Source: Coriobacteriales bacterium (GTDB taxonomy: Bacteria > Actinomycetota > Coriobacteriia > Coriobacteriales > UMGS124). From it: a DNA stretch of 34,118 nucleotides. Position numbers and translations under genes: made by a program. The stretch is taken from positions 1-34,118 of the forward strand of contig JAFWFL010000061.1 of NCBI GenBank assembly GCA_017515595.1, read 5' to 3'. The notes below the pieces were generated by a model. The model worked only from the letters and a program-made list of their open reading frames with translations. It had not been told where the DNA came from and made no database searches. The first letter of the stretch is position 1, and every line of letters begins with the position of its first letter. Positions 2,837-34,118 of this stretch are shown here, one piece after another.

Positions 2837-3240
2837 ATGGCAAAAAGGTGACGACCCGTTGTCCACAAGACAAGCGCGGGCTTCTCGTCCGGAGCTAAAT
2901 GGCAAAAAAGTGATGATCCGTTGCCCAAAAAGGGAGACAGGGGCTTTTTGGAAAGGGCTTGATGGCAAAAAGGTGACGATCCGTTGTCTCTTGGGTTTAT
3001 AAATGCCGTTGGAGCGATGTCAAATGGCAAAAAGGTGAGGATTCGTTGTCTGAAGTGAGTGCAAAACTGAATATCATTTTAATAACAATCAATAAAATGC
3101 CTGATAATAGCTCATTACATAGTTAAAACAAGTGTTAGACTCCTGACAATTGACAACGTATTGTCACCTTTTTGCCATTTGCACCTGTCCGAGAGGAAAG
3201 ATTCTGGCTTTGAGACAACGAATCGTCACCTTTTTGCCAT
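2837..3240. repeat. Symmetric repeat array A (family I)
   Basis: Four forward copies of a 27-bp unit (TGGCAAAAAGGTGACGAT then CCGTTGTC) start at 2837, 2899, 2962 and 3024. Two inverted copies occupy 3152-3178 and 3214-3240. Steps are 62, 63 and 62 bp on the left and 62 on the right. The inner gap, 3051-3151, is exactly 101 bp and A+T-rich, with AAATGCCTGAT at its middle. The 35-bp spacers differ from each other, but the right-hand spacers match those of array B after reverse complementing. The array fills the divergent intergenic region between murT and the LRR gene. Reading frames through it are repeat artefacts. Confidence 0.9.
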
Positions 3241-7678: not shown

Positions 7679-7872
7679 CTTGCGCACGAGAATCGGTCTT
7701 ATGTTGCTCAATTAATCCAATTAATGAAGTACCTGCATCGCACCAGATATACTTGAAAAAAAGAACGCCCAGGTCGGAAGCGCGGGGGTTTCTCGTAAAA
7801 ATCAATTATGCAATAAATGTGCTCAATTAATTGGATTAATTGAGCGCTAAAAGACCGATTCTCGTGCGCAAG
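7679..7872. repeat. Palindromic element F (family II)
   Basis: Outer 22-bp arms (7679-7700 and 7851-7872) are perfect inverted repeats. Inside each arm is a palindrome built on CTCAATTAATCC: imperfect near 7706-7727, and with 11-bp arms at 7821-7831 and 7835-7845. Palindrome starts are 115 bp apart. At the exact middle, 7761-7785, is the conserved centre (AAGAAC, then CAGGTC, then GAAGCGCGG) shared with elements G and H. Element F lies between divergent genes. Apart from it and the two promoters, 7500-8061 holds nothing I recognise. Confidence 0.88.
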
Positions 7873-13356: not shown

Positions 13357-15447
13357 ATGTCGTTTGATTTCTCACGCAGAAGCTTTATTGCCGGTTCTGC
13401 CATGCTCGCAGGCGCAGCTCTGGCAGGTTCAGCCGCAACCGCATTTGCTGCCGGTTCCGGTACTGACGAAGATATGAAATTTGCTGCAACAAGTGAGCAA
13501 AACGGTATTAACACAAGCGGTCCCCGTTACTACAAGCAGGACCCGAGCTTCTTTACCGCTCCCGCTCCTATGACCGAGGCTGACTGCGTCGAGACCAAGG
13601 AAGCCGACGTTGTAATTATTGGCGCCGGTAACTCAGGTTGCGCAGCTGCTGCTTCTTGCGTTGATAACGGTCTCAATGTTATTGTTATCGAGAAGCTCGG
13701 TACCGTTCAGGGCCGCGGCGGCGGTATTGGCCTCTGCAACACCAAGTTCACCAAAGAGTATGGCGAGAAGATTGGCCAAGACCTTACCGTTAACATCGAA
13801 GAAGCTCAGCATCGCTGGATTCGCACCTGCGCAAGCCGTGTTAAGGAATCCCTCGTTTCACAGTGGTTCAACAGGAGTGGCGAAGCCGGTAACTGGCTCA
13901 TTGATAAGGCTGCCGAGTATGGCGTTTTCCCGGACTCCTTCCGTGCTTATGCTCCCAATGCTATCATCCCCGAGAGCTTCTCGTATCATCAGTTCCATCG
14001 TACGGCCGACACCCCCAAGTTCCCGGCCGAGTGCAGCTACTTTGTAGCAACCAGCATTCTTTATGTTGACTCTCAGGATGCCGAGAAGCACGGCGGCGTT
14101 TGCGCAACCTATGACTTCTACACCTGCGCTCAGCAGCTTGTTAAGGATAACCAGGGTCGTGTAGACGGTGTTGTTGCACTCAATGAAGACGGCGACTATG
14201 TGTATTACCGCGGAACCAAGGGTGTTATTATCGCAACCGGCGGTATTGACATGGATCAGGAAATGGTTGACTATTACTGCGAACCTATTGTCCGTCATTG
14301 CCTTGAGAACCAGAACAGCCCTGCCGGTTATTCAACCGGTGACGGCATTAAGATGGGCCTTTGGGCCGGCGCTGCAGTTCAGGGCGGCGACTTCCCGCTT
14401 ATGCTCCATCCTCAGGCAGGCTGCATGTTCCATGGCGCCTTCATGTTCGTAAACAAGGAAGGCCAGCGTTTCTGCAACGAGGGCACCTGGGTACAGGGCA
14501 AGTCCATGAACGTTATGCGTCAGACCGACAACATGGCCTGGTCAATTTTTGATGCCAACTACGGCGAGCAGAACGTCAAAACCCTCGAGAACGGCGTGGG
14601 CGGCGGTATGTTCTGGGATTCCATGGGCGGCGAAGTAGGCGACCCGTTTAAGCCTGAGGATGTAACTTCCATTGTTGACAGCGCTATTGCAGCTGATAAT
14701 GGTACCGCATACAAGGCCGATACCCTTCTTGAGCTTGCCAAGCTTATCAATGTTGACCCGGTTGGCCTCCAGGAGAGCGTTGACCGCTACAACGAGCTTG
14801 TTGCTCAGGGTGTTGACACTGACTTCCATAAGCAGGCCGACTTCCTGTTCCCTGTTGTTGAGCCTCCGTTCTATGCTGCCAAGGTTGGCGTGGCTCTTCT
14901 CGCCATCGTGGGCGGTCTTGAGATCAACAACAAGATGCAGGTTCTCACCAAGGACCGCCAGATCATCCCCGGCCTCTATGCAACCGGCAATGCTTCTGGC
15001 GATCTCTATGCGGTTGACTATCCCATCAATATGGCCGGTAACTCCAACGGCCGCTGCCTCACCTGGGGCTACCTGCTTGGTCAGATTCTCGCCGGTGTGG
15101 ACGACATCAAGGCCGAAATGCCTCCTACCATCCAGGGCGATGTTGACGGCGATGTTCCCGAGGAAGCAGCCGGCGGATTCAAGGACGGCGTCTATGAGGC
15201 AACCGGCAAGGGCATTGGCGGCAAGGTGCCGCTCACTGTTACCATTGAAGGCGGCAAGATTGTAAGCGTTGAGGTTGGCGCAAACGGCGAAACCATGGGC
15301 ATTGGCTCCAAGGCTATCGAGAAGCTCCCGGCTCTCATTGTTGAGGCTCAGGGCATTGAGGGCGTAGACGGCGTCTCCGGCGCATCCGTAACCTCCAAGG
15401 CTATCTTCACCGCTATGGCCGACATTCTCGAGCAAGCACAGGCTTAA
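13357..15447 (+). CDS. Tat-exported FAD reductase with FMN-binding domain (fumarate-reductase fold)
   Basis: A 696-residue flavoprotein. The Tat signal FSRRSFIAGSA opens it (cleavage near AFA-A, residue 32). The FAD_binding_2 domain has its dinucleotide motif VVIIGAGNSGCAAA near residues 86-99. The C-terminal FMN_bind domain (about 605-696) has DGVSGASVT; Thr679 fits the ApbE flavinylation site, so FMN is probably covalently bound. It would pass electrons from the membrane through FMN to FAD and reduce an organic acceptor outside the membrane. The canonical fumarate-reductase segment HGxNRLGGN is replaced here by YAVDYPINMAGNSNGR at residues 551-566, so fumarate is doubtful. AAGGAGG lies well placed before the ATG. 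The next gene is a close paralogue without the FMN domain. Confidence 0.9.
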   Translation: MSFDFSRRSFIAGSAMLAGAALAGSAATAFAAGSGTDEDMKFAATSEQNGINTSGPRYYKQDPSFFTAPAPMTEADCVETKEADVVIIGAGNSGCAAAASCVDNGLNVIVIEKLGTVQGRGGGIGLCNTKFTKEYGEKIGQDLTVNIEEAQHRWIRTCASRVKESLVSQWFNRSGEAGNWLIDKAAEYGVFPDSFRAYAPNAIIPESFSYHQFHRTADTPKFPAECSYFVATSILYVDSQDAEKHGGVCATYDFYTCAQQLVKDNQGRVDGVVALNEDGDYVYYRGTKGVIIATGGIDMDQEMVDYYCEPIVRHCLENQNSPAGYSTGDGIKMGLWAGAAVQGGDFPLMLHPQAGCMFHGAFMFVNKEGQRFCNEGTWVQGKSMNVMRQTDNMAWSIFDANYGEQNVKTLENGVGGGMFWDSMGGEVGDPFKPEDVTSIVDSAIAADNGTAYKADTLLELAKLINVDPVGLQESVDRYNELVAQGVDTDFHKQADFLFPVVEPPFYAAKVGVALLAIVGGLEINNKMQVLTKDRQIIPGLYATGNASGDLYAVDYPINMAGNSNGRCLTWGYLLGQILAGVDDIKAEMPPTIQGDVDGDVPEEAAGGFKDGVYEATGKGIGGKVPLTVTIEGGKIVSVEVGANGETMGIGSKAIEKLPALIVEAQGIEGVDGVSGASVTSKAIFTAMADILEQAQA

Positions 15448-15659: not shown

Positions 15660-17267
15660 ATGTCAGTTTCGCGTAGAAGCTTTATTGCCGGGTCAGCTCT
15701 TGCTGCAGGTGCCGTAGCCGCCGGTGCTGTTGCCCCCGTTGCCGCTCAGGCCGAGGAACCGTTTGCTGCCGCACATCCTTGGGAGATTGCTCCCGAACCC
15801 ATTACCGACATTGTAAAGACCGTTGAGACCGAGGTTCTGATCATTGGTGCCGGTATCGCAGGATGTGCCTGCGCATGTTCTGCAGCTGAGAACGGTGCAA
15901 AGGTTATTTGCGTTGAGAAGTCCGAGAAGTGGAACGGCCGTGGCGGCGGTTTTGGCGCCATCAAGAGCCGCTATATGGACAAGCTCGAGGGTTGCGTTGT
16001 TGACAAGGTTAACGCCAAGCAGCACTGGATTGCTCAATGCGCAAGCCGTGCAAACGAAGATCTTATCTCCAAGTTCTTCAATGACTCCGAGGAAGCCTCC
16101 AACTGGCTTCTCGACAAGGCCGAGGCCGTAGGCGCTTTTGTTATGGTAGGCGCTTTCTACAGCCATGACGACGTATATGCAGAGCAGCCCGGTTACCATA
16201 TGGTTATGGGCGGCCAGGGCCTTGAGTCTGCCGGTTTCTGCGGCGCAGAGCTTTGCTACAAGGACGCTGTCGCCAATGGCGCTGAGTTCATGTTCAATTC
16301 TCCCGCTGTTCAGCTTGTCAAAGAGGGCGACCGTGTAATTGGCTGCATCTGCGACACCGAGGAAGGTTATGTACAGTACAACGGCACCAAGGGTGTTGTC
16401 CTTGCTACCGGTGACATTGGTGGCAACCGTGAGATGTGCGAAGCTTACGCTCCCATTTGCGTTAAGTATGCATTTGACCGCACCCAGTACACCCCGCTTG
16501 GTGTAAACACCGGCGACGGCCACAAGATGGGCATGTGGGCAGGCGCCGTTCTTCAGGACCTCCCGCTCCCAACCATGATGCATCCGCAGGCATTCTGCTG
16601 GTTCCATGGCCCGTTCCTCTTTGTTAATACTGAGGGCAAGCGCTTTATGTGCGAGGATACCTGGGTACAGGGCAAGTCACTCGCTATCAACCGTCAGCCC
16701 GGCGGCATCGCATACTCCATCTTTGACGCCAACTGGCCTCAGGACCTCATCAACGGCCTGCCTTACGGCGGCGGTATGTTCTGGGACAGCTTCCGTGCAT
16801 ACGGTTCACCCATTGAGGGCGCTGCTCAGTACTTCGAAGGCGTTATCCCCGGTTATGTGGAGAGCGGCCTTGCTTACCAGTCCGACACCATCGAGGGCCT
16901 TGCCGAGCAGATTGGCTGCGACCCCGAGGTTCTCAAGGCAACCGTTGATCGCTACAACTCCATGTGCGACGCCGGTGAGGACACCGACTACTACAAGAAG
17001 CCCGTCTTCCTGACCCCCGTCAAGGAAGGCCCGTTCTATGCTCTGAGCGTTGGTCCCGCCCTCCTCACCGTCACCGGTGGTCTCCGTGTTACCAAGGACT
17101 TCCAGTGCATCGACAAGGACGAGCAGCCCATCCCCGGTCTCTATGCTCTTGGCAATGTCATGGGCGACATCACCGCTATCGACTATCCCATCAACGTCGC
17201 CGGCAACAGCCATGGCCGCTGCATCACCTTTGGCTACGACCTCGGCCGCGACCTCGCACTGGCATAA
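15660..17267 (+). CDS. Tat-exported FAD reductase, short form
   Basis: A 535-residue paralogue of the preceding reductase, with an almost identical Tat start (SVSRRSFIAGSA) and FAD motif VLIIGAGIAGCACA near residues 59-72. It ends after the FAD domain, so it has no FMN_bind module and must take electrons from a separate carrier, possibly the neighbour or a cytochrome/FMN protein elsewhere. The segment AIDYPINVAGNSHGR (Asp508 region) matches the neighbour and departs from the fumarate-reductase signature, so the two likely act on related non-fumarate acceptors. AAGGAG precedes the ATG. It has its own promoter and terminator despite the tandem arrangement. No heme CxxCH motif is present. Confidence 0.88.
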   Translation: MSVSRRSFIAGSALAAGAVAAGAVAPVAAQAEEPFAAAHPWEIAPEPITDIVKTVETEVLIIGAGIAGCACACSAAENGAKVICVEKSEKWNGRGGGFGAIKSRYMDKLEGCVVDKVNAKQHWIAQCASRANEDLISKFFNDSEEASNWLLDKAEAVGAFVMVGAFYSHDDVYAEQPGYHMVMGGQGLESAGFCGAELCYKDAVANGAEFMFNSPAVQLVKEGDRVIGCICDTEEGYVQYNGTKGVVLATGDIGGNREMCEAYAPICVKYAFDRTQYTPLGVNTGDGHKMGMWAGAVLQDLPLPTMMHPQAFCWFHGPFLFVNTEGKRFMCEDTWVQGKSLAINRQPGGIAYSIFDANWPQDLINGLPYGGGMFWDSFRAYGSPIEGAAQYFEGVIPGYVESGLAYQSDTIEGLAEQIGCDPEVLKATVDRYNSMCDAGEDTDYYKKPVFLTPVKEGPFYALSVGPALLTVTGGLRVTKDFQCIDKDEQPIPGLYALGNVMGDITAIDYPINVAGNSHGRCITFGYDLGRDLALA

Positions 17268-17647: not shown

Positions 17648-17835
17648 GTGCACAGATTTCTCTGATTCGTGACAACTCAAACGCATTTGAGTTGTCATAT
17701 TCTCTCCAATCAGCCCCCTATGCTGAGAAGTCCGCGCTTCTGACCTGCGTGTTCTTCTCAACATGAAATCGCACAGCTCCTCGAGTGACTACTCAAACGC
17801 ATTTGAGTAGTCATGAATCGCAAAAATCTGTGCAC
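17648..17835. repeat. Palindromic element G (family II)
   Basis: Two palindromes, GACAACTCAAA with its complement (17671-17696) and GACTACTCAAA with its complement (17787-17812), start 116 bp apart. Outside them are inverted GTGCACAGATTT/GATTC flanks. The conserved 25-bp family II centre lies at 17732-17756 on the minus strand, at the midpoint. The second palindrome differs from the first at mirrored positions (AAC to TAC), so base pairing is kept. Confidence 0.88.
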
Positions 17836-18005
17836 TGAGGTAATCGGGTCGGATATTCTGTTGCTTTAAGAAGCTCTATTTATGTTTCTGTTTGGGATTT
17901 TCTTTTGGCAATCTATGCAAAATCAGGTTTTAACAGGTACTATGTGTGCATCCCCGGTTTTTGTATCGAAGCAAAAATATGTTGCGATGGAGACGGGGGC
18001 AATAT

Positions 18006-19001
18006 ATGAAGTGTATTCTGAGTCATTTGACCGCTTACAGGCATTTGAGCGATTTTGCTGTAAAGCAGACCAAGAACAAGTTTGCAGCATACTGGGAACC
18101 TCTACGTATAGAAAAATATGCACGGGTTGCCAATCTGCAGGATGTTACTGCTCAATTGGGCAAATTGCCAAATGTGGATCTCGGGAATCTGCAAGTACCT
18201 CTCGATAAGGTTGATCTCCTTGTGGTTGATCCTCATAACAGAAGTAATGCCAAAGGTATTGTCAATCATATTGACGCAGATTTTGAACCAATATACGGTT
18301 CGTTAATAGAAGCGATGCCTAATGTATTTGTTGTATCTCCTGAGCTGCTCTTTTTGCAAATGGCAAGCGAATTTGAGAAGATTGATTTGATTGAATTTGG
18401 TTTTGAGCTTTGCGGAGGTTATAGCCTAAGCGCTTCTCATGAATATGGTTTTGTCAATAGATTTCCTCTGACCTCAGTCAAGAGAATTGATGCGTATCTT
18501 AAACGATGCAAACCATCAAATGCGGTTCATAGAGCAACAGAAGCACTGCGCCATGTGGCAGACCACTCGGCTTCACCAAGGGAAACAACGTTTGTTATGC
18601 TCGCAAGTCTTCCTTCGCGGGACGGTGGTTTTGGCTTGGAATTGCCTTGCATGAACTACAAAATTGAGCTTGATCATGCGGATAAATGGCGGAGGAACAA
18701 TTACTACTGCGATATATTTTGGCCAAAGCACAAACTGGCTGTTGAGTATTCAGGCACGCTTGTACACAACAAAGATAATCTTTTCTCAGATAATGAACGC
18801 GAAAACATTATTGAGCTTGAGAAGATCCGGGTTATACGTATTGACGCGCAGCAACTGTCCAATTACGAATCGCTCGAGATAGTTTTAACGAGAATAGCGC
18901 AGTATATGGGAATAAAATTCAGAAGACCGTCTCCCCAAACCATACAAAGGCGCGAGAATCTGAGATCATACCTCTACGGAACAAAGAGGGCTCCCCGTTA
19001 A
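18006..19001 (+). CDS. DUF559/Vsr-like nuclease-fold protein (AbiEi-like, tentative)
   Basis: About 331 residues. The C-terminal third shows a PD-(D/E)XK-like core: CDIFWPKHKLAVEYSG with Asp236 and Glu247, then HNKDNLFSDNEREN and RVIRIDAQQL, as in DUF559/Vsr-related proteins. The N-terminus, ILSHLTAYRH, resembles Coriobacteriia proteins of this type that begin with an ILSHxSAL-like string; on that basis I choose the ATG at 18006, not the in-frame one at 17946. The protein may be a toxin-antitoxin or defence component, but no partner gene is beside it. Its base composition looks more A+T-rich than its neighbours, and it is bracketed by mirrored elements G and H (H starts 10 bp after the stop), which suggests acquisition. 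From 17836 to 18005 I see no other gene. Confidence 0.65.
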   Translation: MKCILSHLTAYRHLSDFAVKQTKNKFAAYWEPLRIEKYARVANLQDVTAQLGKLPNVDLGNLQVPLDKVDLLVVDPHNRSNAKGIVNHIDADFEPIYGSLIEAMPNVFVVSPELLFLQMASEFEKIDLIEFGFELCGGYSLSASHEYGFVNRFPLTSVKRIDAYLKRCKPSNAVHRATEALRHVADHSASPRETTFVMLASLPSRDGGFGLELPCMNYKIELDHADKWRRNNYYCDIFWPKHKLAVEYSGTLVHNKDNLFSDNERENIIELEKIRVIRIDAQQLSNYESLEIVLTRIAQYMGIKFRRPSPQTIQRRENLRSYLYGTKRAPR

Positions 19002-19010
19002 TTCTGCGGT

Positions 19011-19201
19011 GTGCACAGTTTTTTGCGATTCATGACAACTCAAATGCATTTGAGTTGTCATGCGAGAAGCCGTGTGGCTTCATGCCGAGAAGAACGTCCA
19101 GGTCAGAAGCGCGGGCTTCTCGGCATGAGAGGTTGAATGGAGAGAACATGACAACTCAAATGCGTTTGAGTTGTCATGAATCAGAAAAATCCGTGCATTG
19201 G
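19011..19201. repeat. Palindromic element H (family II)
   Basis: Palindromes at 19034-19059 and 19150-19175 (GACAACTCAAA with its complement, TGCA or TGCG-type centre) start 116 bp apart, the same as in element G. The 25-bp centre lies at 19090-19114 on the plus strand and is enclosed by GCCGAGAAG...CTTCTCGGC. The outer flanks mirror those of G: the right end of H matches the left end of G, and the left end of H matches the right end of G. Confidence 0.88.
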
Positions 19202-24581: not shown

Positions 24582-24722
24582 GTGACAGGGAACAGGTCAG
24601 CTTCATATTTAAGAAGAAGGCAGGTATACATGCCATCCTCCGCTTTCGCTTCATAAAAACGCTTCGGATGGAATGTATACCTGCCTTCTTCTTAAATATG
24701 AAGCTGACCTGTTCCCTGTCAC
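24582..24722. repeat. 57-bp-arm inverted repeat between convergent genes
   Basis: Left arm 24582-24638 and right arm 24666-24722 are reverse complements with a single mismatch; the loop is 27 bases. The right end is followed on the plus strand by a T-rich stretch, so it could serve as terminator for the NifX-like gene and, in reverse, for hslO. The arms are far longer than any terminator needs. Confidence 0.92.
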
Positions 24723-27307: not shown

Positions 27308-27357
27308 CGCGATAGAGAGTGTAAAGAAATGGTATAGGTAATATTCTTATAAGTAAT

Positions 27358-27682
27358 GGCGCAAATCCCGGTTTAGAGAAAAGCAACTGGCACAAATCCG
27401 CGTTTAGTGGAGGACTACTGGCTGAGATCCCCGTTTGGGAGAGGCGCTAAGGCACGAACTCGCCCGTTTGCACACCCCGCTGGTTCAAACTCGACCGTTT
27501 GCACGCGGTTAACTGCAAGGGTGTCTCCGTAGGATATTAAAATACCAGATAGTTAAACTCCGGTGCGGAGAAACCCTCGCTATCCATACCTTTAAAGTGT
27601 GCAACGCTCGAGTTCATGCCAAAGGGGTGTACAAACGCTCGAGTTCGTGCCAACGGGTTGTGCAAACGCTCGAGTTTGAACC
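27358..27682. repeat. Symmetric repeat array D (31-bp period)
   Basis: Degenerate 22-23-bp units of the type GGCACGAACTCG-CCGTTTGCAC start at 27358, 27389, 27419, 27451 and 27482 (steps 31, 30, 32, 31). Inverted units begin at 27599, 27629 and 27660. The inner gap is 94 bp, with AAATACCAGAT near its middle, matching the family I centre, and a CTCCG...CGGAG stem around it. Copies next to the centre are better conserved than the left-most ones, which drift. Confidence 0.85.
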
Positions 27683-27761
27683 AGAGCTCCAAGAGCAATC
27701 ATCTTCCCTCGCTGTTTCCAAGCGCGAACTGTGAAACTATCATAGGATGCATGGCTTGTGC

Positions 27762-29932: not shown

Positions 29933-29941
29933 GGCGCAAAT

Positions 29942-29983
29942 AAAAAAGCTGCCGAGAAGCCCAAAAGGTCTTCTCGGCAGCTT
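29942..29983 (-). terminator. Terminator of the third reductase gene
   Basis: 14-bp arms (29946-29959 and 29970-29983, AAGCTGCCGAGAAG). On the minus strand TTTTTTATTT follows. It is the same GCCGAGAAG stem family as at 21363 and 33793. Confidence 0.85.
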
Positions 29984-30025: not shown

Positions 30026-31645
30026 TTATGCAACCGGGTCAAGCTTTGCAATGCTGCGGGCTGCGATACGGCCTGAGCTGATTGCCTCGGAGAGGTTACC
30101 GCCAATGTTATAACGATAGGCATAAATGCAGCCCATCTCGCCTGCAGCATAGAGACGAGGAATGGGCTTCTCGTCCATGTTGAGAACTTCTCCGCCTACG
30201 CCACGCTTGGGACCGCCTTGGGTGTTGAGCAAGGTTGGGCAAAGCTCAACAACATAGTACGGAGGCTCAATAGGCGGAAGCTCGCAGGCCTGAAGCTTGA
30301 CTACATCATCCTCATGTCCGGGGAGGTCAGTACGCTGAGCAAATGCGTTACGTGGCTTTTCGCGCTGATACTCGAGGTCTTCTCCGGCTGCTGCATAGCC
30401 GTTGTATACCTCGATTGTCTTTTGAAGCTTGGCTTCATCAATACCGGTAGCTGCGGCGATGTCGGCTATTGTTTCGCACTTAACGATGATACCGGCTTCC
30501 AGGCCTTCATCATTAGTCTCAATGCCCTTGATGGCTTCAGTGTAGGTTGTGTAGTTGGACGGCTTAAAGAGCGACTCGGCATCATAAAGCGCTTGTCCAA
30601 AAATGCACCATGCGCCGGTTGGCAAGTCAATATGAGCCCAGGTGCCGCTACGGAATACCATGCCATGGCGCTGCAGGTAACCAAGACGTTCATTGGTAAA
30701 GCGGTCACCCTTGGAATCAACGTAAATAAAGTCCTGGCTCTTGCAGCTGCTGTAACCAAATGACGGCCATGTGAGAGCATGCGGGTCATCCTTGCTCAGA
30801 ATCTTGATACCAAGCAGGTTGCCTGACATTGAATTCATATGCCACAGCTTTGCGCCTAAACGCTGGGCCATCTTGATGCCGTCACCACGGTTGAAGTAGC
30901 TGCCTTTACCAAAGGTATGTGCCATACCAATGGGTGAATAAAGCTGCATGAGTTCCTCGTCCTGCTCATAACCGCCACATGCCAAAAGAACGCCCTTGTT
31001 GGCCTTGAAATTGCGGCCATCTTCGCAGGTAACACCAATAACCTCGCCGGCTTCGTTGGTAATGAGATCAATGCCGCGCGCTTCATAATAGAACTTGGTA
31101 TTAAATGAATCCGCGAGAGCTTTCATCATAAGCCAAACGGCCTTGTTCTGGTTTTTGCCCTCATGGAGGTATGAGAAAGCCTCGTCAGCGCAGACTACCT
31201 CGGGATACTCGGCATTGTTGCGGAAATCATGCATATTTGCGCCGCAGTTTTCTTCAAGCCAGTCAACATTCTCAACGATTTCTTCTGCCCAGGCTCGTAC
31301 AAGCTCAGGTTCAACCACATACGGAAGGTTAAGCTCAGTTTGATATGCAATGGCGCCTTCAACACTTGAGGGGCAGAAGATATATTGTCCCGAGACCTTT
31401 GAGTTACCGCCACTGAGCTCCTCAGGTGCTGCCTCAAGTACCAGGCAGGTTCCAAGCTCCTCAAGGCCAACGGTACAAGCTGCGCTTAAGCCGGCGCATC
31501 CTGTGCCCAAGATAACCACATCAGCCTCGTCTGCCCAATCAACTTCGCTTGCGGCTGCTATGGTTGCTCCGGTTGCAACTGTTGCTGCAACAGCTGCGGC
31601 CCCTGTAGTTTTAAGAAAATCCCTACGAGTTACCTGATTACTCAT
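30026..31645 (-). CDS. Tat-exported FAD-dependent reductase paired with LuxR-type regulator
   Basis: A 539-residue flavoprotein with a classic Tat signal (VTRRDFLKTTG) and the FAD_binding_2 motif VVILGTGCAGLSAA near residues 45-58. No FMN_bind domain and no heme motif are present, so it needs an outside electron donor. The usual HGxNRLGGN segment is replaced by YAYRYNIGGNLSE (residues 508-520, with Arg511), so the acceptor is probably not fumarate. It is divergent from a LuxR-type membrane regulator, an arrangement common for single-substrate respiratory reductases in Eggerthellaceae. AAAGGA 8 bases upstream favours ATG 31645 over an upstream in-frame one at 31702. Substrate unknown. Confidence 0.88.
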   Translation of the reverse strand: MSNQVTRRDFLKTTGAAAVAATVATGATIAAASEVDWADEADVVILGTGCAGLSAACTVGLEELGTCLVLEAAPEELSGGNSKVSGQYIFCPSSVEGAIAYQTELNLPYVVEPELVRAWAEEIVENVDWLEENCGANMHDFRNNAEYPEVVCADEAFSYLHEGKNQNKAVWLMMKALADSFNTKFYYEARGIDLITNEAGEVIGVTCEDGRNFKANKGVLLACGGYEQDEELMQLYSPIGMAHTFGKGSYFNRGDGIKMAQRLGAKLWHMNSMSGNLLGIKILSKDDPHALTWPSFGYSSCKSQDFIYVDSKGDRFTNERLGYLQRHGMVFRSGTWAHIDLPTGAWCIFGQALYDAESLFKPSNYTTYTEAIKGIETNDEGLEAGIIVKCETIADIAAATGIDEAKLQKTIEVYNGYAAAGEDLEYQREKPRNAFAQRTDLPGHEDDVVKLQACELPPIEPPYYVVELCPTLLNTQGGPKRGVGGEVLNMDEKPIPRLYAAGEMGCIYAYRYNIGGNLSEAISSGRIAARSIAKLDPVA

Positions 31646-31680
31646 AACAAAGTTCCTTTCTCGAGACCTATATGAACACG

Positions 31681-31720
31681 AATTTACGTTGCAACAACGC
31701 AAATTACGCAGTGAATTATA
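31681..31720 (-). promoter_or_regulatory. Reductase promoter with palindromic operator candidate
   Basis: A TATAAT -10 reads on the minus strand at 31715-31720, with only CACGAT at the -35 distance. Just downstream, 31681-31705 is a 25-bp near-perfect palindrome (AATTTACGTTG, CAA, CAACGCAAATT). The poor -35 fits a regulated promoter, and the palindrome is a candidate site for the divergent LuxR-type regulator. AAGCGC also recurs three times at 31772-31806. Confidence 0.5.
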
Positions 31721-33242: not shown

Positions 33243-33385
33243 AATAGGGGTCTGAGCATTTCTTCTGTCTTGAGATACGTAGAATACTCGATTATTTCAT
33301 AGAGATGTTAATATGCCGCCATGTGTATAACCAGCAAAGATGCCACTTTTGGGTATAAGATAGGGGACAGGACGAAAGATGGGTC

Positions 33386-33779
33386 AGACAGAGGATGATG
33401 GGAAGTCCGAGATGGGTACCCAGGACTTTTTGAACAGAGACGGGATGACCAAAAAGAGACAATGGAGAGTCTGAGACGAGCATGCAGGGTTTCTCGGCAC
33501 TGCCATAGTGGCAGAGAAGAGATGATGGAGAGTCTAAAGGCTTCAAAAAAGCCTCCAAGCCAACAAAAAATGTCACAGAAGAGACGATGGAGAGTCCCCG
33601 ATAGGTTCCTTGATATATATTTAAATATTGATAAATGATTATACCAGGCAATACGTTAATGTTTGTCAGAAGTATATCTGTTTTAGGGCCTGCTTCTGAC
33701 TCTCCATCGTCTCTTCTGTGTCATTTTTTGTTGGCACAAAGCCCCATTTAGGACTTTTAGGCTCTCCATCGTCTCTTTT
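33386..33779. repeat. Symmetric repeat array C (family I)
   Basis: Forward units ending GACGATGGAGAGTC finish at 33407 (degenerate), 33471, 33534 and 33596 (steps 64, 63, 62). Inverted units start at 33698 and 33760. The inner 37-bp arms (33560-33596 and 33698-33734) are reverse complements with one mismatch. The gap 33597-33697 is exactly 101 bp, as in array A, with TATTGCCTGGT on the minus strand at the matching offset. Full units read TGGCAGAGAAGAGATGAT and so share their first 19-20 bases in plan with array A. From 33243 to 33385 I see nothing. Confidence 0.88.
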
Positions 33780-33792
33780 CTGCCAACCTGCT

Positions 33793-33832
33793 TCTGCCGA
33801 GAAACCCGCAAGGTCTTCCCGGCAGCTTTTTT
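33793..33832 (+). terminator. Terminator-like hairpin of the GCCGAGAAG family
   Basis: CTGCCGAGAA pairs with TTCCCGGCAG (one bulge) and is followed by CTTTTTTA. It lies about 550 bp after the LuxR-type gene, at the right end of array C, so which transcript it ends is unclear. Confidence 0.6.
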
Positions 33833-33883
33833 ATACGTAAGACCGGGGTACATCCTCTGTCTGATGGCTTGGGCCAAATGCCA

Positions 33884-34118
33884 ATGGCAAAAAGGTGATG
33901 ATTGGTAGTCTCAGACGAGAGCTTGGTGTTTCTTGGCCAGAGGCTGGTGGCAAAAAGGTGACGATCCGTTGTCTCGTAGCCAGAATTTTATCTCTCTGAC
34001 AAGTGCAAATGGCAAAAAGGTGACGATTCGTTGTCTCATGCAGGCTCTTACTCAGATATTGCTTTTTCGACAATCAATATAATGCCAGGTAAAAGCTTAT
34101 TACACTATTAAAACAAAT
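33884..34118. repeat. Repeat array B (family I), cut by the window end
   Basis: Units of the array A type start at 33884, 33947 and 34009 (steps 63, 62). After the last one, TAATGCCAGGT sits at the same offset (49-53 of the gap) as in arrays A and C. The two spacers match the right-hand spacers of array A when those are reverse complemented. The inverted half lies beyond the window. Confidence 0.88.

Follow-up and report, generated by a model that had tools for sequence, protein, structure and literature searches.

The window analysed here is the whole 34,118-nucleotide stretch of contig JAFWFL010000061.1, from a Coriobacteriales bacterium. Array A lies at positions 2837-3240. It consists of four forward and two inverted copies of a 27-bp unit, with steps of 62/63/62 bp on one arm and 62 bp on the other, and an inner gap of 101 bp. 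This number and arrangement of units had been described in the first-pass annotation and was confirmed. The array is adjoined by a gene for a MurT protein, with 75-80% identity to proteins of Coriobacteriaceae/Atopobiaceae MAGs from rumen and sheep gut. The features considered in the window are the following:

2837..3050, forward strand: left arm of array A, units 2837-2863, 2899-2925, 2962-2988 and 3024-3050
3051..3151, no strand: centre of array A, 101 bp, dyad at 3101
3094..3105, reverse strand: dyad core of array A, ATCAGGCATTTT; the family-wide consensus is ACCTGGNNTTTT
3152..3240, reverse strand: right arm of array A, inverted units 3152-3178 and 3214-3240
7679..7872, no strand: non-autonomous element, unit CTCAATTAATCCAATTAATGAGG, which matches the repeats flanking nuclease gene L141
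17648..17835, no strand: symmetric repeat pair of the TGACAACTCAAACGCATTTGAGTTGTCA family, upstream of the nuclease gene
17946..19001, forward strand: putative Vsr-like/EDxHD nuclease homologue gene, 351 aa, paralogue of the putative type-1 partner
19011..19197, no strand: inverted copy of the TGACAACTCAAACGCATTTGAGTTGTCA-family pair, 187 nt, lying downstream of the nuclease gene; complementarity to the pair at 17648..17835 is 86%
27451..27684, no strand: symmetric array with 31-bp steps, unit GGCACGAACTCGACCGTTTGCAC, related core AAAATACCAGATAGTTAAA
33446..33785, no strand: array B, type-2 units TGGCAGAGAAGAGACGATGGAGAGTC at +33446, +33509, +33571, -33698 and -33760; 62/63-bp steps, 101-bp gap
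33885..34118, no strand: array C, type-1 units 33885-33910, 33948-33973 and 34010-34035, half centre with core region 34082-34103; truncated by the contig end

Geometry of the type-1 arrays

The type-1 unit, TGGCAAAAAGGTGACGATYCGTTGTC (26-27 bp), was matched eight times in the window at up to three mismatches, where shuffles predicted none. In the whole genome 86 matches were obtained, against none for a reversed-pattern control, and the repeats are thus not specific to the locus, contrary to what had been supposed at first. About 17 type-1 arrays were counted in the genome (approximately 15 complete, together with several halves cut at contig ends). This count is uncertain because many contigs stop within arrays, at least seven of them doing so (C34, C46, C50, C91, C94, C105 and C115).

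The start-to-start distance between the inner units was 127 bp, equivalent to the 101-bp gap, in 14 of the 15 two-armed arrays and 126 bp in the other one. The inner step was 62 bp in 29 of 31 cases, and the outer step was 63 bp in 16 of 24. These distances place the unit centres approximately 63.5, 125.5 and 188.5 bp from the dyad, and the near-palindromic core sits at the dyad itself. The units shared on average 90% identity and the spacers only ~46-55% in an ungapped comparison, with both steps and centre fixed, in agreement with the earlier claim that spacing is conserved over sequence. Random spacing of the other copies, which had been named at first as the finding that would speak against the array, was not seen in the genome-wide spacing count, with 14 of 15 centres at 127 bp. 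The exact 101-bp gap claimed for two arrays of the window holds for array A and array B (33446-33785), and the array at 33885-34118 is cut off by the contig end before its gap is complete.

When the genes flanking the arrays were compared, no helper gene shared by all of them was found. Flavoproteins, LuxR regulators and ABC proteins occur beside arrays, which probably reflects their own abundance. Three FAD-binding flavoprotein paralogues are located within the 34 kb of the window (13357-15447, 15660-17267 and 30026-31702), and others lie beside many arrays elsewhere in the genome, so that the family looks strongly amplified.

The inverted arms, and the GAGAAACCC...GGGCTTCTC stems that many array spacers contain, could be attributed to RNA-level elements, namely long hairpin transcripts, terminators or attenuators. 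This was considered extremely improbable: with units at ~90% and spacers at ~46-55% identity the arms do not pair throughout, the genes flanking type-1 arrays are convergent, divergent or tandem, no Rfam match was detected in the window, and the step lengths track the DNA helix. CRISPR arrays, characterised by unique spacers and a single repeat orientation, were rejected as well, since here different arrays have related spacers and the repeat orientation is reversed on the two sides of a centre.

MITEs and the ends of Tn7- and Tn402-like transposons carry multiple transposase-binding sites in inverted arms. In the present arrays, unlike these, it is the centre that is conserved and the outer edges that decay, which is the reverse of a transposon, and no terminal duplication was found. 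Neither sharp element ends nor a target-site duplication were seen in the type-1 arrays, whose ends are ragged in the genome of the window. The type-1 unit and core were absent from other species among 60 and 299 relatives, the GTDB r220 contigs and IMG/VR, two collection scans that may omit records very near this genome.

Other array families

The units of array B have diverged from type 1, yet its steps and gap are equal to those of the type-1 arrays, and by eye its centre is similar to theirs. A degenerate outer unit was found at 33382-33407. Further symmetric arrays with other units were detected by a blind search for inverted repeats in parts of the genome; the census of these families is partial, as it covers targeted stretches. 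Arm steps of 31, 41 and 62/63 bp were observed in the genome of the window, and of 51 bp in one relative. The steps of 31, 41, 51 and 62 bp fit a period of 10.3 bp within 0.6 bp, corresponding to 3, 4, 5 and 6 helical turns; about six turns had been assigned to the 62-bp step at first. Several centres of the other families have in common a core like TANAATACCAGGTAA. The centre distance is fixed within each family, and 101 bp is family-specific: the fixed 101-bp centre of the first-pass annotation applies to 14 of 15 type-1 arrays, and the other families have fixed distances of their own. No partner gene was found for the orphan array types (type 2 and the 41-bp step).

In the 31-bp arrays (window 27330-27450, L071 8300-8412, L076 7500-7612) the outer units resemble CACAGATCC..TTTCGAGAGG, the type found at L142. 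It looks as if the outer units were older and the inner ones newer, the unit type having turned over from the centre outwards with the 31-bp step kept. At 24582-24722 the window has a near-perfect inverted repeat of 57 bp (98%) around a loop of 27 bp, which bears no relation to the arrays. In addition, a recurrent GCCGAGAAGCCC...GGGCTTCTCGGC stem was noticed genome-wide, in apparent terminators as well as in array spacers; its positions in the window are 29940-29980, 33794-33834, 7775-7800 and 19096-19129.

Putative nuclease genes and their repeats

The nuclease gene of the window has a copy of its own repeat pair on each side, the two copies being inverted relative to each other, and it has five paralogues in the genome. 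Five of these six genes have their own flanking arrays: L140 and L141 carry them on both sides, L142 has a 31-bp-step array downstream, and L143 (C123:24551-25565) lies ~0.2 kb from the type-1 array C123b. No flanking array was detected at L144. L143 is the candidate cognate enzyme of the type-1 arrays, an assignment drawn from one adjacency among ~17 arrays. A test for a RAYT transposase or DNA-binding gene that co-occurs across related genomes had been proposed in the first-pass annotation. The gene family that was found is that of the putative Vsr-like/EDxHD nuclease (~335 aa); of 100 genomes of Coriobacteriales, 79 contain it, and a genome may have as many as 17 diverged copies. A search for homologues in viruses found none.

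A RAYT transposase as partner, suggested at first, did not withstand the analysis. Inverted pairs dispersed between genes, in a genome with six Y1_Tnp genes, are what would be expected if the arrays were REPINs, single-stranded hairpins moved by a resident RAYT (Y1/TnpA_REP) enzyme. This origin is very unlikely, as no type-1 unit is near any of the six Y1_Tnp genes, the flanks shown of the RAYT genes carry other repeats (for instance TGACTCATAAGAACCGTCCC and GTACAGGGGTCAGGTTATTGTACAC), steps of whole helical turns are not expected of single-stranded hairpins, and the association with nuclease genes explains the repeats better. The alternatives offered at first, a protein assembly or a mobile REPIN-like unit, both pointed in the right direction, except that the arrays are not REPINs of a RAYT.

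In three complete relatives, 23 of 32 nuclease genes had a symmetric pair within 600 bp. Pair density was 0.81 per kb near the genes and 0.039 per kb elsewhere, a 21-fold difference (binomial p ~1e-20); this control consists largely of coding DNA, so the excess relative to intergenic DNA must be smaller, and is estimated at still above tenfold. When every locus is counted, 47 of 71 nuclease genes have a pair and about a third are without a detectable one. The similarity of the genes and that of their units covary (Mantel r 0.33, p 2e-4), part of which is due to common descent, as the close gene-unit pairs found between genomes are for the most part orthologues in synteny. At one syntenic pair of loci (L195/L180) both arms were altered together and the 99-bp gap remained unchanged.

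A match of at least 8/10 to the core ACCTGGNNTTTT was present near the dyad in 26 of 61 pairs, compared with 4% of shuffled gaps, and array C123b, the type-1 array close to L143, has a core that scored 9/10. An exact CCWGG at every dyad proved too strict a definition (7 of 61), and the wider core ACCTGGNNTTTT holds. The 5' part of the unit, TGGCA, was common to 18 of 46 units, against 2.5 in shuffles. Core match and shared TGGCA link the type-1 arrays with the nuclease family even when the adjacency to L143 is left aside.

Dispersal could be followed in related genomes. G031 contains 17 inverted pairs of the unit TGGACAAAATCGGCCTTCGGGACTGA, at a distance of 103-104 bp; two of the pairs enclose one nuclease gene, and the other 15 lie elsewhere. 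Only two such pairs, at the gene, occur in G094, and none in G058. Another relative, G088, carries 46 units, mostly as inverted pairs 110-130 bp apart. The pair-gene-pair cassette, ~1.4 kb long, is present in G094 and G031 and absent between the same two genes in six related genomes; a homologue was found in G066. The gene adjoins complete pairs, and the cassette is polymorphic at one site, where the single empty-site comparison is too diverged to define its junction.

The pairs lie upstream and/or downstream of the genes, as might be expected if the genes were nuclease-toxin or defence loci, the flanking pairs autoregulatory operators and the dispersed arrays regulatory relics or decoys. Multi-copy, diverged nuclease genes do look like conflict systems, and weak PADLOC matches to methyl-directed restriction enzymes were obtained. 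This explanation nevertheless appears rather unlikely, because gene-free dispersed pairs far outnumber the genes and retain the same core and geometry, and many pairs are on the 3' side of the gene. Helical phasing, a fixed centre and strict symmetry would also suit the sites of a chromosome-organising or partition-type protein, forming a fixed nucleoprotein scaffold that is not mobile. Such a scaffold is improbable in view of the absence of the unit from relatives, the several unrelated unit families side by side, a copy number that varies from 0 to 17 pairs between related genera, and the nuclease residues retained by the paired gene family.

The putative enzyme and its proposed mode of action

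Among 40 homologues, E203, D248, E259 and H266 were invariant and D275 was at least 90% conserved, so that the E..D..H..D positions of the EDxHD type are present in the family. The closest solved structure by profile was the catalytic domain of I-Bth0305I (PDB 3r3p), a weak match with E 0.0024. The structure model had a mean pLDDT of 46.6, best in the C-terminal part and poor outside the C-terminal domain; in a fold search with this low-confidence model, which gave weak PDB matches, the I-Bth0305I domain ranked second (prob 0.99), just below AbaSI. Weak Pfam matches at E<=0.01 were obtained to MTES_1575 for 21 of the 40 homologues and to DUF559 for 11. Judged from these matches, the partner family appears to be a Vsr-like/EDxHD nuclease of the PD-(D/E)XK superfamily.

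MTES_1575 has been described as a Vsr-family REase (PMC3710099), and the weak Pfam matches place the present proteins in the same superfamily as Vsr, MTES_1575 and DUF559. The setting is different: MTES_1575 is known as part of giant HEPN/helicase proteins, Vsr is known for its role in mismatch repair, and no repeat family is reported with either. I-Bth0305I has a related nuclease domain with conserved E, D, H and D positions and is a multi-domain protein; the target on which it dimerises is very long, nearly 60 bp (PMC3943268). The genes described here, in contrast, are not in an intron and lie beside, not inside, their presumed targets, which are dispersed arrays of up to ~500 bp. The REPIN/RAYT system (PMC3116915) also has a single-copy enzyme gene flanked by its own inverted pair, many gene-free intergenic pairs with fixed spacing, and several flavours per genome, each with its own gene. 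Dispersed inverted pairs linked to one gene per family were found both in G031 and in the genome of the window. The differences from REPIN/RAYT are that the enzyme is a putative Vsr-like/EDxHD nuclease instead of a Y1 (HUH) tyrosine transposase, whose gene does not accompany the type-1 units, that the units are not GTAG/CGTC-tagged hairpins, that an arm can consist of tandem units in phase with whole turns of the helix, and that a near-palindromic central core is conserved. Of the six RAYT/Y1 genes of the genome (L105-L110), those whose flanks were inspected each have a REP family of their own beside them (for example CTGACAAAAGGACGCACC and those named above), so that the genome contains another partnership of gene and repeats, independent of the first.

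The most likely reading of the arrays is that they are non-autonomous copies of selfish elements encoding the nuclease, REPIN-like in organisation and served by an unrelated enzyme. It is probable that they represent dispersed non-coding copies of the recognition region of such an element. This analysis established the arrays with their geometry, the association of genes and repeats, the common core, the dispersal, and the presence or absence of the cassette at one orthologous site; the binding, cleavage and mobility mechanism of the putative nuclease elements we infer. Each family would comprise one nuclease gene, with its own symmetric element beside it once or twice, and many further copies of the element that lie elsewhere and lack a gene. 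The nuclease may act as a symmetric multimer, its N-terminal part binding the inverted units, which whole-turn spacing would bring onto one face of the DNA. At the dyad, the nuclease domains would then come together on the near-palindromic core ACCTGGNNTTTT and cut it, and repair of the break from another copy would convert or copy elements. The pair-gene-pair cassette could enter a single element in the manner of a homing endonuclease gene.

No earlier description of a link between nuclease and repeats in Coriobacteria was found in the open-licence literature, where this kind of dispersed element, widespread in related bacteria, is previously unreported. With a likelihood just short of even, these may be bacterial mobile elements of a new class that is common in Coriobacteriia, in which an EDxHD/Vsr-like nuclease poly- or multimerises on phased inverted arrays around a ACCTGGNNTTTT core and spreads the arrays by cutting and repair, specificity and units changing together and geometry staying fixed. 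If this is true, REPIN-like partnerships of gene and repeat have at least two origins, involving unrelated enzymes. A large nuclease family of Coriobacteriia from gut and rumen, most of it uncharacterised, would then have a role that can be tested and a predicted target. Every gene would have its own predicted recognition sequence (unit, spacing and core), providing many natural pairs for the study of changes in nuclease specificity. It would also account for assemblies breaking within arrays.

Other dispersed inverted repeats, of the GTTTGTCATCCTGAGCGGAG type and others, were observed in the relatives at a distance from the nuclease genes (L181 517-648, L193 569-700, L202 8990 and L205 8606).
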